From an uncultured Saprospiraceae bacterium (GTDB taxonomy: Bacteria; Bacteroidota; Bacteroidia; Chitinophagales; Saprospiraceae), in the NCBI GenBank assembly GCA_937944245.1, contig CALDYY010000123.1, positions 1 through 35,831 of the forward strand: 35,831 nt of DNA, given 5' to 3'. A program made the position numbers and the translations under genes. Below the pieces are notes generated by a model. It was not told the DNA's origin. It saw only the letters and a program-made list of their open reading frames with translations, and did not search any database. The stretch's first letter is position 1; each line of letters starts with the position of its first letter. This document shows, in pieces, positions 10,996 through 32,473 of the stretch.

Positions 10996-12254
10996 TGCAG
11001 GTACTTTACAATTTAGGAATATACTTTTACGGAGTTGCTATTTGGCTAGCAGCTTTTTTTCATCCAAAAGCAAAGCAATGGATAAATGGGCGAAAGAATA
11101 TTTGGAAAGTTTTAGCTAATAATATTCCCAATAATCGAACGGTAATTTGGGTGCATTGCGCTTCATTAGGTGAATTTGAGCAAGGCAGACCCATCATTGA
11201 AGCCATAAAAAAAAAATATTCGACACCATATATATTACTTACTTTTTTTTCGCCTTCGGGCTATGAAATTCGCAAGCATTATCCACAAGCAGATTTTGTC
11301 AGCTATCTGCCATTGGATACACCTACTAATGCCCGGCGTTTTTTGAAAATAGTACAACCTAAATTAGTCGTTTTCGTGAAATATGAATTTTGGTACAACT
11401 ATCTAAAAATCCTTCAGCAGCAGCAAATTCAAGCTATTCTCATATCAGCTGTTTTTCATCTGAAGCAGCCTTTTTTTGGCAAATGGTATAGCCCTTTTTT
11501 CCAAAAGATATTGCATAGTTTTAATCAGATTTTTGTGCAAGCGCAGTCTTCCGCCAGTTTGTTGGCGAAGATTAATATTTTGCACTACACGGTTGCGGGC
11601 GATACACGCATTGACCGCGTTGTTAATATTGTAAACACTGCTTGTGCTTTTCCTTTGGTAGAAAATTTTGTAGGTGATGCTCCAACGCTGGTTTGCGGAA
11701 GCACTTGGCAAGCCGATGAAGCTATTATTTGCTCTTTCATTAACCGAAATGAGTCCAACTGGAAGTTTATCATTGCACCACATGATGTGTCGGATAATCA
11801 CATTCAGCAAATTAAAAAACAACTTCAAGTACCTCATTTCTGCTATTCAGAAGCTGGCTTAGTGGAGGACTTTAGTTTGCAAAAAGTGCTCATTATTGAT
11901 TCGATAGGTATGCTATCTCAACTCTATCAATACGGTAAGGTCGCTTACATTGGAGGAGGCTTTGGTAAAGGTATTCACAATACACTTGAACCTGCGGCTT
12001 TCAATTTGCCTATCTTGATTGGAACTAATTACGAAAAATTTGAAGAGGCTACACAACTCATTCGTATAGGTGGAATGTTTGTGGTGAACGACGTGGAGAC
12101 ATTAGCGCAACACATGAAAACACTAGAAGATAAAAAGTATTACACAGAAGCAGTTGAAAAAATAAAACAATTTATCTCTGATAATCAAGGTGCTACAAAG
12201 AAAGTAATGGATTATTTGGAAGAAAATCAGTACATGAAACAACTACTAAATTAA
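10995..12254 (+). CDS. waaA: 3-deoxy-D-manno-octulosonic acid (Kdo) transferase
   Basis: 419 residues, normal length for WaaA/KdtA. An N-terminal hydrophobic helix (GIYFYGVAIWLAAFF) anchors it to the inner membrane. The GT30 N domain carries WVHCASLGEFEQGRP, with E60 as the expected catalytic base. LLTFFSPSGYE, LPLDTP and FVKYEFWYNYL follow. The C domain shows GSTWQADE, FIAPHDV and AYIGGGFGKGIHNTLEPAAFNLPILIG, the donor-binding signature of the family. It transfers Kdo from CMP-Kdo to lipid A precursor, the first core LPS step. The start overlaps the stop of the barrel gene by one base. Confidence 0.95.
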   Translation: MQVLYNLGIYFYGVAIWLAAFFHPKAKQWINGRKNIWKVLANNIPNNRTVIWVHCASLGEFEQGRPIIEAIKKKYSTPYILLTFFSPSGYEIRKHYPQADFVSYLPLDTPTNARRFLKIVQPKLVVFVKYEFWYNYLKILQQQQIQAILISAVFHLKQPFFGKWYSPFFQKILHSFNQIFVQAQSSASLLAKINILHYTVAGDTRIDRVVNIVNTACAFPLVENFVGDAPTLVCGSTWQADEAIICSFINRNESNWKFIIAPHDVSDNHIQQIKKQLQVPHFCYSEAGLVEDFSLQKVLIIDSIGMLSQLYQYGKVAYIGGGFGKGIHNTLEPAAFNLPILIGTNYEKFEEATQLIRIGGMFVVNDVETLAQHMKTLEDKKYYTEAVEKIKQFISDNQGATKKVMDYLEENQYMKQLLN

Positions 12255-12313
12255 ATTTCAACAAACCTTCCCACGCTTTGCTCGTTAGGCAAGTAAACTA
12301 AAAGAAAAACGTT

Positions 12314-12865
12314 ATGGCATTCAAGATATACACAAAAACTGGTGATAAAGGAGAAACCTCTCTTTTTGGTGGAAAGCGATTACCCAAGAACCATATCCGT
12401 ATTGAAGCCTATGGCACTATTGATGAACTCAACGCCTACATTGGTTTGGTGCGTGATGCCATTGAAGATGAGGCTTCTCGAAGCATACTCAAACAAGCTC
12501 AAGACCGACTTTTTACGATTGGTGCCCTTCTAGCTACCGATCCTGATAAACCTATGCCACTTCCAGATATTAAGGAAATTGATTTGGAACTACTTGAAAA
12601 TGAAATGGATAGAATAGAAGAAGTGCTTGAGCCTCTCAAAAATTTTATTCTTCCAGGTGGACATATTATCGTTTCTTATTGTCATGTTGCACGATGTGTA
12701 TGTAGGCGAGCGGAGCGCAATGTGGTTGCGTTGAAACAAGAAAGTCCAGTAGCGGACATCATCCCACAATACATCAATCGCTTATCTGATTATTTGTTTA
12801 TGTTAGCACGCTATCAGTCGAAGTTGCTGAAAGTAGAAGAAGTGATTTGGTTGCCGAGAAAGTAG
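12314..12865 (+). CDS. Cob(I)alamin adenosyltransferase, PduO type
   Basis: 183 residues, a full-length PduO/MMAB-type ATP:cob(I)alamin adenosyltransferase. The ATP-binding N terminus is YTKTGDKGETSLFGG (6-20), followed by RIEAYGTIDELNAYIG. The C-terminal helices show ILPGG, HVARCVCRRAERNVV (124-138) and NRLSDYLFMLAR (155-166), all family hallmarks. It makes adenosylcobalamin, probably from salvaged corrinoid, for B12-dependent mutases. Ribonucleotide reductase is another possible user. No other B12 genes are in the window. It lies 59 bp after waaA on the same strand, so it may share that transcript, and a strong hairpin follows. Confidence 0.95.
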   Translation: MAFKIYTKTGDKGETSLFGGKRLPKNHIRIEAYGTIDELNAYIGLVRDAIEDEASRSILKQAQDRLFTIGALLATDPDKPMPLPDIKEIDLELLENEMDRIEEVLEPLKNFILPGGHIIVSYCHVARCVCRRAERNVVALKQESPVADIIPQYINRLSDYLFMLARYQSKLLKVEEVIWLPRK

Positions 12866-12873
12866 TTTGGATT

Positions 12874-12928
12874 TTTTGGACAGAATGGACAGGATAGCCA
12901 CTGCAAATCCTGTCCATTCTGTCCAAAA
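12874..12928. terminator. Perfect 22-bp hairpin between convergent genes
   Basis: The arms 12874-12895 (TTTTGGACAGAATGGACAGG...) and 12907-12928 are perfectly complementary with an 11-nt loop. T runs flank it on one strand and A runs on the other. It lies 8 bp after the adenosyltransferase stop and 30 bp before the end of the convergent gene, and should be a bidirectional terminator. Confidence 0.85.
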
Positions 12929-12958
12929 GAAAAGTATGCTATGCTATTTAGGGAAGCA

Positions 12959-28538: not shown

Positions 28539-28723
28539 ATTAGGGGGCATACCTCCCTTGAATTGACTATCCTTCTCCCTAAAAACAAAATATCCCCCCT
28601 TTCTTTTCTCCAACATCAAAAAAACCCTCTTGATTTTGACGCATTTTTTATTTAATTTTTGTATGTAATTAACATCCCATCACCAAAATTGCGAAAAGGG
28701 CAGTTTTGAAAAATTTAAGGTAT

Positions 28724-28975
28724 ATGATAACGCTTAAAACAAGAAGCGAACTTGCTTACGCTTATGGCTATTGGTGTACGCCAACTTTCAAAAGGCATGT
28801 AAAGAAAACAGGTATTATCCTTCCCCGTTACGGCTTGTTAGATGCTGATATTCAACTGATAATTTATGCAAAAATGGGCATTCCTAAAGGATTCTCCATA
28901 GAAGAGCAAGCTATAATAGCGACGCTACTGGAAAGCCATTGCCCAAAACCGTATTTACCCCCCCCCATATTATAG
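28724..28975 (+). CDS. Small basic protein, possible DNA-binding, ends in a poly-C tract
   Basis: 83 residues from the ATG at 28724; a TTG 18 bp upstream is possible. TRSELAYAYGYWCTPTFKRHVKKTGI suggests a helix-turn-helix: a selection helix followed by a basic recognition-like helix. LLDADIQLIIYAKMGIPKGF after it is reminiscent of small Bacteroidota HTH proteins. I do not recognise a named family. The last codons include three CCC prolines made by a C9 run (28958-28966), and the stop comes two codons later. Loss of one C would extend the protein by about 35 residues. No partner gene is evident. Confidence in translation is moderate. Confidence 0.55.
   Translation: MITLKTRSELAYAYGYWCTPTFKRHVKKTGIILPRYGLLDADIQLIIYAKMGIPKGFSIEEQAIIATLLESHCPKPYLPPPIL
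28958..28966 (+). repeat. Homopolymeric C9 tract in a coding 3' end
   Basis: Nine consecutive C in an AT-rich region, encoding Pro-Pro-Pro just before ATA TTA TAG. Such tracts are prone to slipped-strand mispairing and to sequencing error. Confidence 0.9.
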
Positions 28976-29070
28976 AAAGTTAAATATGTTTGATTTTGTT
29001 CAATTTTTGTACTTGCAAAGGCAGGCTGCAATCCCTAATTTTGTATCATATTCTTGTAGCAAGATATTCA

Positions 29071-29102
29071 TTTGATATTGATAGTGCACTTCAATATATT
29101 TT
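29071..29102 (+). promoter_or_regulatory. Candidate promoter of the fibre-like T9SS gene
   Basis: TTTG (29071-29074) and TATATTTT (29095-29102) are separated by 20 bp, near the phylum consensus. The start codon is 76 bp downstream. Confidence 0.3.
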
Positions 29103-29178
29103 TTTGGAAAAGAACTGCTGCTACTGCTTTTGTAGGGTAGGGGTCTAATTATTTTAACTTCTAAAACTATTTAGGATT

Positions 29179-30519
29179 ATGAAAGTAATATTTTGTGCTG
29201 TTATTTTGTTAACTACGAATCCATTAGCACTTCTATCTCAAGGTTGGAATGCTAACACTGCGTCCAATTCTTTGTTTACTATCAACTCTTTAGGGACAAA
29301 TAACAATGTTAACGTAGGCATTGGAACGAATATTCCAGTTGCGCAGTTTCATACTACAGGAACAGTTAGGTTCGCAGGACTAATGAATAATAACTCATTA
29401 ACTAGAGTAGTTGTTTCTGACAATAGTGGCAATTTATCTTTTAGAAATTTAGGTACCATTAGCGATGATATATTGGCGAGTGCATGGAAACTTAATGGTA
29501 ATACTATTAGCTCAACAAATTTTATTGGTACATTAAATAATCAAGATTTTAGGATTAGAACTAATAATACTCAAAGAATGAGTATTGACATAAATGGAAA
29601 TCTTATGATAAACGACCAAATCATTTCTGGGGCTACAGCGAATAAAAAGGTAACTGTTCATACAAACAATAATGTGCAGTATATGGGTTCAGTTAATGTA
29701 ACTAGCAACCTCAATTCTTTGCATGATGGTATTGTAATTGTGAATACCTCTAATAGTCAATTAGACGGTAGAGGCGTAAGTATAGTAATGCAAAGTTCCA
29801 GCGGTACTCCTAATGCATACGGAACAGCTGTTATAAGCGGCGTTACTGTTGCGCCTAATAAAATGGATATAACTTTTCAAGTTGAAACTGATAACTTAAC
29901 AGATATTCAAGGTAAATTCAATGAAGTTAGAGAAGCAATGCGCATAACTAATAATCGCTTTATTGGAATGGGAACATCAACGCCAAGTGCTAGATTACAT
30001 GTTCTATGCCAACCAAATCTTAATGGGAGTGATATTAGGCTTCAGAATCTTCCTACTGGACAAGGCAGTGTGCTTGTAATTGATGCAAATGGTTATATCT
30101 ACAAGTCTACGGCAAATAATAATAATGACTATCAACAAATGAAATCAGCTATTGAAAGCCAAGAACGAGAAATAAAAATACTGAAAGAAGAAATATCACG
30201 CCTTAAAGTGTTAAGTAACATTACATTATTCAAAGATGAGAATGATGATATTTTAAGTTTGCAAAAGTTAGAAGTTTTCCCGAATCCAACAAGCTCAGAA
30301 GTTATTTTCAGGTGGCAAAAAAATGTAGAACAAAAAGTATGGAATACTACCATAAATATTTATAGTATTGACGGCGAATTAAAAAATTCTACTAATCTAG
30401 ACTTTAATCTTGAAAATGAAGTTAAAATAGATACTTATGGATGGATAAAAGGTCAGTATATTTGTACTATTATTACTAACGGAAAGGCAGTAGATACAAG
30501 GATTTTGCTAGTTCAATAG
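29179..30519 (+). CDS. Secreted fibre-like protein with coiled coil and T9SS sorting domain
   Basis: 446 residues. A signal peptide (VIFCAVILLTTNPLALLSQ) is followed by short beta repeats rich in Asn, Gly, Thr and Ser (VNVGIGTNIPVAQFHTTGTVRFAGL, FIGMGTSTPSARLHVL), the style of phage tail-fibre or S74-type stalks common in Bacteroidota surface proteins. A coiled coil lies near residues 320-345 (IESQEREIKILKEEISRLKVL). The last about 80 residues are a T9SS type A domain (LEVFPNPTSSEVIF ... ILLVQ). It is predicted to be exported and anchored or released at the surface. No S74 autoprotease core is visible. It likely functions in adhesion or as a structural fibre (inference). Confidence 0.85.
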   Translation: MKVIFCAVILLTTNPLALLSQGWNANTASNSLFTINSLGTNNNVNVGIGTNIPVAQFHTTGTVRFAGLMNNNSLTRVVVSDNSGNLSFRNLGTISDDILASAWKLNGNTISSTNFIGTLNNQDFRIRTNNTQRMSIDINGNLMINDQIISGATANKKVTVHTNNNVQYMGSVNVTSNLNSLHDGIVIVNTSNSQLDGRGVSIVMQSSSGTPNAYGTAVISGVTVAPNKMDITFQVETDNLTDIQGKFNEVREAMRITNNRFIGMGTSTPSARLHVLCQPNLNGSDIRLQNLPTGQGSVLVIDANGYIYKSTANNNNDYQQMKSAIESQEREIKILKEEISRLKVLSNITLFKDENDDILSLQKLEVFPNPTSSEVIFRWQKNVEQKVWNTTINIYSIDGELKNSTNLDFNLENEVKIDTYGWIKGQYICTIITNGKAVDTRILLVQ

Positions 30520-30557
30520 AAACTCCTATAAAAACTTTTTATCATCAGCAAAGATTG

Positions 30558-30572
30558 CTTTCAAATTGAAAG
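30558..30572. promoter_or_regulatory. Short palindrome upstream of the methyltransferase gene
   Basis: CTTTCAA and TTGAAAG are perfect 7-bp inverted repeats with a 1-nt centre, 62 bp before the start of the next gene. An operator is possible; there is no independent support. Confidence 0.2.
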
Positions 30573-30633
30573 TTGATAGAATTGTATTTATAGACTGTTT
30601 GTATCCATAAAATTATTAGATATTTATTTAGCA

Positions 30634-31620
30634 ATGTCTAATAATTTTAGCAAAACTCAGACAACGTTAGTACATAATATAAAATCTTCGCTTTACGAAA
30701 TAAATAAATCATACAAGATGGAGAGGGAAAAACATTTACTTTTTACGATAAGAGATATTTACGAAAAAGGAGGAAATATTATTGAGTATCTAAAGCAGAG
30801 TAAACAAACAGATATTAACAGTATTGAAGACATTATGATAAGTTACGATTTTCAGGCGGGAACTTACATAAAATATGCAGACCACAATAAAGAGTATGTT
30901 CAAGCCTATACAGGTAATCTTTTCAAGGTAATTAGTAGTTTGGGTAAGTTTGATTCTATTCTGGAAGTAGGTGTAGGCGAGGCAACTACATTAGCTAATC
31001 TTCTTTTATATTTTAGTGATATTCCTAAATATGTTTACGGCTTTGATATTTCTTGGTCTAGAATCAAATATGGATTATACTATTTATCAAAACTAGGCTT
31101 GACCAAAGTGCAATTAGCAACAGGCGATATATTTGCCTGTCCTTTTAGAGATAACTCAATTGATATTGTTTACACGTCTCATTCTATAGAGCCAAATGGA
31201 GGAAAAGAAAAAGAAGCACTTAGAGAATTATTTAGAATTACTAAGTATTATCTAGTACTATTAGAACCTTCTTTTGATTTTGCTGATGAAGAAGGACGTA
31301 CTAGAATGCTTAAAAATGGTTATGTTACTAATTTGTATAAAATAGCTAAAGAGTTAGGATACAATATTATAGAACATAGATTATTTGATGTATCCTCAAA
31401 TAGACTAAATCCAACAGGATTGATAGTTATAAAGAAATCGAATAACAATCAACATAACTTATCTTTTTTATGTTGCCCATTAACTTATACAAATTTAGAT
31501 TTAATTAATGGATGTTACTATAGTAAAGATGCATTTTTAGCCTATCCTGTCATAGATAAAGTTCCTTGTTTGCTACCTCAAAATGCTATTATTGCCACCC
31601 ATTTTTTAGATGAATTATAG
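30634..31620 (+). CDS. SAM-dependent methyltransferase with C-terminal Trm112-like domain
   Basis: 328 residues. The Rossmann methyltransferase domain spans about 90-270: motif I ILEVGVGEATTL (E111), the acidic D138 of VYGFDIS, D165 of ATGDIFACPF and the motif IV region DIVYTSHSIE. An N-terminal helical region of about 85 residues precedes it. Residues 277-316 (LSFLCCPLTYTNL ... AFLAYPVIDKVPCLLPQNAII) resemble a Trm112/UPF0434 domain, but the usual pairs of zinc-binding cysteines are mostly missing (only C280/C281). Substrate unknown: small molecule or sugar are as likely as protein. The stop codon TAG is the outermost part of the large palindromic element that follows. Local AT richness suggests accessory DNA. 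Confidence 0.85.
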   Translation: MSNNFSKTQTTLVHNIKSSLYEINKSYKMEREKHLLFTIRDIYEKGGNIIEYLKQSKQTDINSIEDIMISYDFQAGTYIKYADHNKEYVQAYTGNLFKVISSLGKFDSILEVGVGEATTLANLLLYFSDIPKYVYGFDISWSRIKYGLYYLSKLGLTKVQLATGDIFACPFRDNSIDIVYTSHSIEPNGGKEKEALRELFRITKYYLVLLEPSFDFADEEGRTRMLKNGYVTNLYKIAKELGYNIIEHRLFDVSSNRLNPTGLIVIKKSNNNQHNLSFLCCPLTYTNLDLINGCYYSKDAFLAYPVIDKVPCLLPQNAIIATHFLDEL

Positions 31621-31721
31621 TTATGACGTAGTTGTTCAAGAGGACTCTGCTACGCTAGGTTCTCTTGAACAACGTAACGTGCCCGCGTGCAACACGCGGG
31701 CACGTTATACGTCATAACTAT
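31617..31721. repeat. 105-nt three-way-junction palindromic element
   Basis: The outer stem pairs 31617-31630 with 31708-31721 (14 bp, perfect). Inside are two hairpins. The first is 31631-31642 with 31662-31673 (12 bp, 19-nt loop). The second is GC-rich, 31675-31689 with 31693-31707 (15 bp, loop CAA). Only G31674 is unpaired at the junction. It begins one base before the methyltransferase stop codon and has no T run, so it is not an ordinary terminator. It may be a palindromic mobile repeat (REP/BIME-like) or a structured RNA. Confidence 0.85.
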
Positions 31722-31738
31722 TTACAATATAAAGTACA

Positions 31739-32473
31739 ATGAAAACGACTTTGGTCATTTGCGTCTTTACGATTTCATTTTCTTGTCAAGGGATAGCTCA
31801 AGTAGCTTTTGGCGTAGGGGTTTCCAACCATACTCATTTTTTTCAACACGATGATCGTCGCATTTTTGATAATGCAAGGTATCAGCCTTCCATAGCCAAT
31901 TCACTAGGATTAAATGCTTACTTTGAATGGCAGGGGGAAGGAAGATTTCAATTTCGATTGAATACAGCACTTGGAGAAAAAAAAATCGTTCTAGCTAGTA
32001 AATTTCGTCTGCCTGACACAGGAGGTAGGGTAAAAGCCACGATTAGCCATAGATTAATATTTGCGGATGTCGCTTTCTTGTCCGTTTTTAATTTATCTAG
32101 CACCAAAAACATATTTTTAGATGAAAAGAAAAGTAGTTTTTTTCCCATATTGGGCTTTCACCTTTCTCTTAATCAGTATTTAGGGAAAATTCAAGGAGCT
32201 AAAATTAGTAATAACGGTGTGCTCAATCAAGGAACATTACCCGCAGTTGACTTGACCGTAGAAGATTATCCCTTTGTAATTGGTGCAGGGATTAGTCTAG
32301 GAACATTGTATAAGTTCAACCTAAAAAAACGCCACTTCGCCTTACAAGCCCTCTTGCAACTCTCCCCTTCTGATTTTTTTAGTGATGTGTTTACCGCTAC
32401 ACAACCAAGTGTAAAAGGTAAATATCATTATCTTTCTTTGGGTATGTACATGCCCTTGATTCAAAAGAAATAA
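31739..32473 (+). CDS. Probable outer-membrane beta-barrel protein
   Basis: 244 residues with a signal peptide (TTLVICVFTISFSCQGIAQ). The mature part shows alternating patterns of a small barrel (VAFGVGVSNHTHFF, LGLNAYFEWQGEGRFQFRLNTALG, FADVAFLSVFNL, FFPILGFHLSLNQYL, YPFVIGAGISLGTLYKFNL, HFALQALLQLSP, KYHYLSLGMYMPLI), ending in an aromatic-rich strand. It resembles the PorT / OMP_b-brl_2 type proteins of Bacteroidota but I cannot assign it. A lipobox-like cysteine is absent; C16 within the signal is probably part of the hydrophobic core. It lies just after the palindromic element, separated from the methyltransferase by 118 bp. Confidence 0.75.
   Translation: MKTTLVICVFTISFSCQGIAQVAFGVGVSNHTHFFQHDDRRIFDNARYQPSIANSLGLNAYFEWQGEGRFQFRLNTALGEKKIVLASKFRLPDTGGRVKATISHRLIFADVAFLSVFNLSSTKNIFLDEKKSSFFPILGFHLSLNQYLGKIQGAKISNNGVLNQGTLPAVDLTVEDYPFVIGAGISLGTLYKFNLKKRHFALQALLQLSPSDFFSDVFTATQPSVKGKYHYLSLGMYMPLIQKK

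Follow-up and report, generated by a model that had tools for sequence, protein, structure and literature searches.

In this study, we characterized a 105-nt, three-armed palindromic element (positions 31617 to 31721, plus strand) that stands flush with the end of a methyltransferase gene in the genome of an uncultured member of the Saprospiraceae. The window, by which we mean the whole stretch of 35,831 nucleotides that was analysed, is the entire contig C123 of this 3.80-Mb, 147-contig genome (G000). We propose, with moderate confidence, that the element is a REP-like, multi-armed palindrome of a gene end that would form a blocking RNA structure between two genes. The relation to REPs is supported by a homologue of one arm in another genus (G034), by a multi-copy set of hairpins that share the tip of that homologue, and by a preference for TAG among the stop codons next to them in two genomes of a further genus. 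On the RNA side, the element probably acts as an intercistronic mRNA structure.

Structure and strength of the element

Direct reading, a repeat finder and folding agree on the architecture that an earlier note had read from the letters of the window, namely a 14-bp outer stem around two hairpins with a single junction base. The outer stem joins 31617-31630 to 31708-31721 in 14 of 14 pairs (100% complementary). The TAG stop codon of the methyltransferase (31618-31620) occupies bases 2-4 of this stem, beginning at its second base as claimed, and the 3′ arm ends in ACTAT, so that a TAG stands at base 2 on the opposite strand too. Hairpin 1 (31631-31673) consists of arms 31631-31645 and 31659-31673, separated by 13 nt, and has 15 pairs, one of which is G.T; the 12 bp reported for it earlier are its uninterrupted Watson-Crick part. 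Its tip core (31649-31655) reads GCTACGC on the plus strand and GCGTAGC on the minus strand. Hairpin 2 (31675-31707; arms 31675-31689 and 31693-31707) is a perfect stem of 15 bp, as the note had it, with the loop CAA, and it holds the GC-rich pairing CCCGCGTG/CACGCGGG that had been remarked upon before. Between the two hairpins lies G31674, which is unpaired in the earlier fold and which the RNA minimum free energy (MFE) optimum moves into a G.U pair. As plus-strand RNA, the element folds with an MFE of -70.5 kcal/mol (z -13.7), a value equalled by 0 of 200 shuffles; the minus strand reaches -65.7 (z -10.5), and folding with DNA parameters gives a z of about -12 on both strands. No T run follows the stem on its 3′ side and the terminator-site search lists no site there, in line with the earlier view that this is not a simple terminator.

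The element has the lowest MFE among 12,350 windows of 130 nt drawn from 311,183 bases of its own genome, the runner-up being at -57.7. A search for three-way junctions with perfect stems covered 660,538 own-genome bases, made up of the window and 39 further stretches and equal to about 17% of the genome, and among the matches listed there was no other compact perfect junction: the summed stem length is 46 in the element vs. at most 38 in the others, each of which spans at least 132 nt. A stricter junction search over 146 loci (1.45 Mb, with many loci overlapping or coming from other genomes) listed 27 matches, 9 of them the same element and 18 of longer range and mostly AT-rich; its shuffled-sequence control gave 8.

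Copy number and the setting of hairpins at gene ends

Near-identical copies elsewhere had been named in the earlier note as the mark of a mobile repeat, and the searches for them found a single copy. BLAST over the whole genome at E <= 1 returned the self-match alone, and a covariance model of the element found only itself in G000 at E <= 10. Among 59 relatives, 22 had BLAST matches, all of a size expected by chance (15-32 nt, E 0.04 to 1), and 394 other genomes of the class gave no match at E <= 0.001. Plasmids gave no match to the element, nor did viral contigs to patterns of its exact arms; a 21-nt match occurs in two records of one Lactobacillus phage.

The position of the element is ordinary for this genome. 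In the 660-kb own-genome sample, a census of long hairpins (stem of at least 13 bp, loop of at most 20 nt) yielded 86, the two arms of the element included. An ORF stop is at most 60 nt away from 52 of the 86 and at most 6 nt away from 17; 15 are contained in ORFs of 450 nt or longer, and a foot with five T or A is seen in only 23. Long hairpins at stop codons without a T run are therefore the norm here, and what is special about the element is its three-armed design, its strength and its arm 1. The window itself has two more long perfect hairpins, at 12872-12930 and 2621-2665, the former starting 6 nt past a TAG stop.

The abundance of such gene-end hairpins, many of them flush with a stop and most without a run at the foot, together with the single copy and the lack of any sign of a repeat in relatives, favours the strongest alternative to our reading: that the element is a lineage-specific barrier or mRNA stabiliser which grew locally, with neither a family nor a transfer behind it, and that its resemblance to a hairpin in G034 is convergence. 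We judge this credible but unlikely. Among the matches listed in the own-genome sample there is no second three-armed case, and the resemblance to G034 exceeds what palindromes of this kind reach by chance, as set out below.

A homologue of hairpin 1 in another genus

When 60 genomes, its own included, were searched with a covariance model that had the element as its sole sequence, one further match was obtained, in G034, which belongs to the same family but to a different genus, with an E of 0.0019, at which about 0.1 such matches are expected by chance across the 60 genomes. Hairpin 1 with the G that follows it aligns to G034 without a gap, 35 of 44 positions being identical. Both sides are changed in two neighbouring pairs, which are thus compensatory. 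Palindrome-preserving nulls, comprising 150 synthetic and 85 real own-genome hairpins run against the same 344 kb, reached a maximum of 29. Keeping the arm and shuffling the loop gave a mean of 29.8 (maximum 34), and keeping the loop and shuffling the arm a mean of 25.4 (maximum 27), indicating that most of the signal resides in the arm and that the tip contributes. This homology, with its compensatory pairs, argues against local growth.

In G034, the homologous hairpin begins a 369-nt block of nested hairpins (L128, G034:C26, about 12250-12620) that folds at -208.6 kcal/mol on the plus strand, relative to a mean of -117.4 (sd 5.5) for 40 shuffles, and at -254.6 on the minus strand, and that is the strongest fold among 11,413 windows of a 344-kb sample of that genome. 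Besides a plain hairpin, the block holds two branched junctions whose arms are separated by a single unpaired base. The order of the arms varies between genomes. By inspection, the block is bordered by an ORF whose end resembles that of a tyrosine recombinase and by another that reads like a Fic protein. Pairing in the block is uneven between strands: the minus strand has 11 G.U and 138 Watson-Crick pairs (149), the plus strand 0 G.U among 137, and in folds without G.U the single mismatches of the plus strand are six A.C and two C.T, with no G.T. Such a wobble bias could be expected either from pairing of a minus-strand RNA or from a strand-biased mutation process. At the one comparable wobble site, the element has G.T on the plus strand and G034 has A.C on the plus strand, which is the opposite direction.

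The tip-hairpin set and its stop codons

A pattern made from hairpin 1 and its G034 counterpart matched exactly only in G000 and G034 among 248 genomes of the family. Matches to the two-hairpin pattern with two mismatches occurred in five other genomes (reversed control, 2) and were rejected as the same hairpin, their contexts showing none. A related pattern was found at 13 places in 6 of 395 genomes of the phylum (control, 0), 8 of the 13 being in G805; the G805 repeats share the tip letters and form another, mosaic repeat, and were likewise set aside. In that genome, which belongs to another class of the phylum, the mosaic repeat is dispersed (L148, L152-L158), has several hairpins and includes the letters CAGGAACTCCGCTNCGCTNCGTACTCTG.

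On one strand, the tip consensus consists of a 4-nt arm, GNA, GCGNAGC, GGA and the complementary 4-nt arm; the GCGNAGC core is that of the DNA mini-hairpins with a GNA loop, which are exceptionally stable. The minus-strand tip of G034 is an exact instance of ACGNAGCGNAGCGGAGTTC. With no more than one mismatch allowed, a search of 396 genomes of the order located this pattern 54 times, in 11 genomes (reversed control, 3), mostly in G1187 (16), G1020 (15) and G1176 (12), and 0 times in G000. The tip of the element, GAAC-CTA-GCGTAGC-AGA-GTCC, keeps the core and differs at 3 of the 17 positions that the consensus fixes. Given this deviation and the miss by the pattern, any membership of the element in the set would run through G034.

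The set was analysed more closely in G1176 and G1187, two genomes of one genus (g7) of this family, using 40 stretches of about 19 kb each; these were partly picked around known matches, so that the density of hits does not stand for a genome average. At up to 4 mismatches, the stretches hold 40 tip hairpins (14 and 26, respectively), of which 33 are distinct. All four pairs beside the tip are Watson-Crick in 26 of the 33; of the other seven, one includes a G.T and six have broken pairs. The intact pairs come in five letter combinations (GAAC/GTTC 20, CAAC/GTTG 2, GACC/GGTC 2, AAAC/GTTT 1 and GAGC/GCTC 1), and the GCGNAGC core is present in 22 of the 33. On the minus strand of one G1187 stretch (L239, G1187:C3, 8398-9354), ten tip hairpins follow one another; of the nine steps between them the first measures 53 nt and most of the others 112-115 nt. 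This row is a tandem array of multi-hairpin units. Exact tip hairpins also occur in two IMG/VR viral contigs (L159 439-461 and L216 5618-5638), in the first of them upstream of ORFs that by inspection resemble terminase subunits.

The stop codons next to the tip hairpins in G1176 and G1187 were examined by the distance from stop to motif, with mechanical six-frame ORFs. Where an ORF of at least 300 nt ends at most 16 nt before the motif, its stop is TAG in 11 of 12 cases, and when the limit is widened to 60 nt, in 14 of 16. By comparison, in these stretches TAG ends 142 of 341 and 131 of 328 mechanical ORFs that are 600 nt or longer, and 66 of 150 stops of convergent pairs are TAG; the binomial chance of 11 in 12, calculated by hand, is roughly 0.0004 to 0.001. 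For 28 of the 40 tip hairpins there is no ORF stop within 16 nt, many of these being inner copies of tandem arrays. One copy (L218) extends exactly from a TAG to the TAG of a convergent gene over 111 bp and is closed by TAGCTTC/GAAGCTA. Its layout is that of the element, which shares the TAG-flush feature through the stop codon in its outer stem.

A stable tip of this kind would also suit a site recognised as folded single-stranded DNA, whether a target or relic of a Y1/HUH enzyme, a recombinase site or a replication start, that became stranded at the gene end. The near-perfect Watson-Crick stems fold on both strands, the tip core is that of the exceptionally stable mini-hairpins, the G034 cluster lies behind the recombinase-like ORF end, the genome has three Y1 genes, one of them flanked by 43-bp hairpins, and the element adjoins an AT-rich island. 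Nevertheless, we hold such a site to be improbable, as G034 has no match to a Y1 transposase, no recombinase or transposase occurs among the window genes scanned (eight window ORFs fall outside that scan), the core motifs of attC sites are absent and the element is single-copy.

The methyltransferase gene and its neighbourhood

The gene upstream of the element (30634-31620, plus strand) encodes a 328-aa methyltransferase (Pfam Methyltransf_25/11/31), and a same-strand gene of 244 aa without a Pfam match (31739-32473) starts 17 nt past the element. The methyltransferase is patchily distributed, being found in 4 of 199 genomes of the family, its own included, and at 39 loci among 84,980 species, these loci coming from Bacteroidota, Firmicutes and a single proteobacterial bin; the best identities (58-59%) are to Firmicutes, and the tree places the gene without firmness. 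Among genomes of the same genus, a recognisable methyltransferase is absent from G002 and G003 and a close downstream gene from G001-G003. GC content is 27-35% from about 28.7 to 31.7 kb and mostly 36-44% in the remainder of 26.0-35.8 kb, with a second dip to 33% at 34.0-34.7 kb. The AT-rich stretch (28700-31700) holds a Por_Secre_tail protein and the patchy methyltransferase, and the element lies at its right edge. This composition is compatible with acquired DNA, without proving it.

It had been suggested in the earlier note that the element might have created or replaced the end of the methyltransferase gene. The proteins of 15 of 37 scanned relatives (L060-L064, L066, L069, L070, L073, L082, L085, L089, L091-L093) terminate at nearly the same position, to within a few residues, so that there is no visible sign of the element having cut the gene. 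Two further loci (L084, L088) end nearby, the C-termini for L081, L095 and L096 are not comparable, and 12 Bacteroidota loci, which form one clade, extend longer. In view of this longer clade and the tree placement, the methyltransferase may conceivably have lost a few residues. At the 37 loci scanned, no branched structure comparable to the element lies 3′ of the gene; what L078 has there is a long but plain hairpin. In G141 (L037 47-1195, 2480-2610), an ORF that by inspection reads like a tyrosine recombinase is followed by a methyltransferase relative and then by an imperfect palindromic stretch.

A structured RNA acting in cis or in trans, such as a 5′ region that regulates the downstream gene, would be in keeping with the nearby start codon, the absence of a TAnnTTTG-type promoter motif from 31401-31745 and the G.U bias of G034 (11 minus, 0 plus), as if constrained as RNA, but it is very unlikely, since the window has 0 Rfam matches at the gathering score (the best below threshold being symR, 23 bits vs. 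61), nothing comparable follows the scanned methyltransferase relatives, and the bias could stem from mutation and is reversed at the shared wobble site. For the undescribed structured RNA considered in the earlier note, no Rfam family reaches its threshold, and conservation amounts to two compensatory pairs between two sequences, those of hairpin 1 and of a homologue that lies at another site.

Proposed origin and role

By the test set in the note, the proposal of a mobile palindromic repeat failed, as the near-identical copies did not materialise; a relation to REPs gained support from the homologue, the tip set and the TAG stops. The REP-like reading also draws on the strength of the fold, on the number of long hairpins close to stops in this genome (52 of 86 at 60 nt or less) and on the reported place of REPs behind genes, to which they often supply TAG. 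Several observations count against the REP-like reading, namely the single copy, the tip that is off consensus, the E of 0.0019 over 60 genomes, the 28 of 40 tip hairpins without a near stop, the broken arm pairs in 6 of 33 and the differing arm order. A transcript-stabilising structure, which the note had also considered, would fit the position and strength of the element.

Taken as a REP-like gene-end element, it would have the following history and role. As DNA, it would be an intergenic palindrome, one arm of which belongs to a patchily distributed set of Bacteroidota hairpins with a conserved tip. It may have arrived by transfer, and it would have settled, or been assembled, flush with the end of a methyltransferase gene that is itself horizontally patchy, so that the outer stem came to hold the TAG. 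As RNA, it would be transcribed as the last part of the methyltransferase message and fold into a three-way junction ahead of the next gene. Its most likely effect would be that of a barrier, protecting the upstream message from 3′-to-5′ exonucleases and reducing read-through into the downstream gene.

It is conceivable, though we put it forward only tentatively and think it doubtful as a whole, that the element is one member of an undescribed class in Bacteroidota: multi-armed palindromes with a GNA mini-hairpin tip and a TAG border that would move as single-stranded DNA, insert directly at stop codons, capture the 3′ ends of genes and build up into branched clusters such as that of G034. The conserved tip, with its co-changing flanking pairs, and the TAG preference make it practicable to look for such elements throughout the phylum. 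The tip set also allows one to ask what spreads these elements, and whether hairpins that end genes of this group but lack a T tract act as barriers to transcription.

Comparison with known systems

Among the open-licence papers searched, none describes such elements in this group by title or abstract, and the papers in which the motif strings appear are, by the same criterion, unrelated. Like an intrinsic terminator, the element is a stable hairpin structure after a stop codon; unlike one, it is branched and lacks a T tract, and the next same-strand gene begins 17 nt later. With neither a T tract nor a called site, a canonical terminator was rejected. The attC sites of integrons are folded palindromes behind an ORF with the core sites RYYYAAC and GTTRRRY; these motifs are absent from both strands by inspection, so that an attC site was rejected, and the pairing of the element is, in contrast to such sites, nearly perfect. 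The T-shaped telomeres of parvoviruses have an outer stem around two small palindromes. They resemble the element in shape only, as it is bacterial, internal and single.

A closer comparison is offered by Y1 transposases and their palindromes. In the part of the literature on these enzymes on which we draw, subclass 2.6 Y1 proteins of Bacteroidetes are flanked by atypical structures (PMC6006769), and these resemble the present case in being Bacteroidetes palindromes with copies away from the gene. However, the three Y1 proteins of this genome bear the signature of subclass 1.2 (Y---Q--HH), and none adjoins the element. A link to a RAYT gained no support, as G034 has no Y1 match. One of the Y1 genes (G000:C12; L170 177-219, 711-753) is flanked by two near-perfect hairpins of 43 bp, for which no further copy was found in the genome; the foot of these hairpins, GTAACGTG/CACGTTAC, is an 8-bp stretch in common with hairpin 2, which may be chance.

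The nearest known elements are the REPs of the GTAG and CGTC super-families (Di Nocera et al., 2013; PMC3733652). In the portions of that account used here, REPs sit behind genes and often supply their TAG, measure 20-40 bp with stems of 5-13 bp, and in tagged form are mainly proteobacterial; for Bacteroidetes these portions name only CGTC types, which they describe as lacking a dedicated transposase (PMC3733652). REPs are present in many copies, and those of the GTAG type have an associated Y1 transposase. The element is present in 1 copy; it is 105 nt long with stems of 14, 15 and 15; it lacks an unpaired GTAG or CGTC tag, its end being a paired ATAG, with a GTAG found internally at 31628-31631; and no transposase flanks it, the three Y1 genes of the genome lying elsewhere. 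As position and TAG border are shared but copy number, size and tag differ, we do not file the element as a REP, although in place and shape it works like a cluster of them. The likeness, as far as the same portions describe REPs, lies in a palindrome directly 3′ of a coding region with a terminus that supplies TAG, in compensatory changes within stems, and in units that stand singly, as here, or in clusters, as in G034 (PMC3733652).
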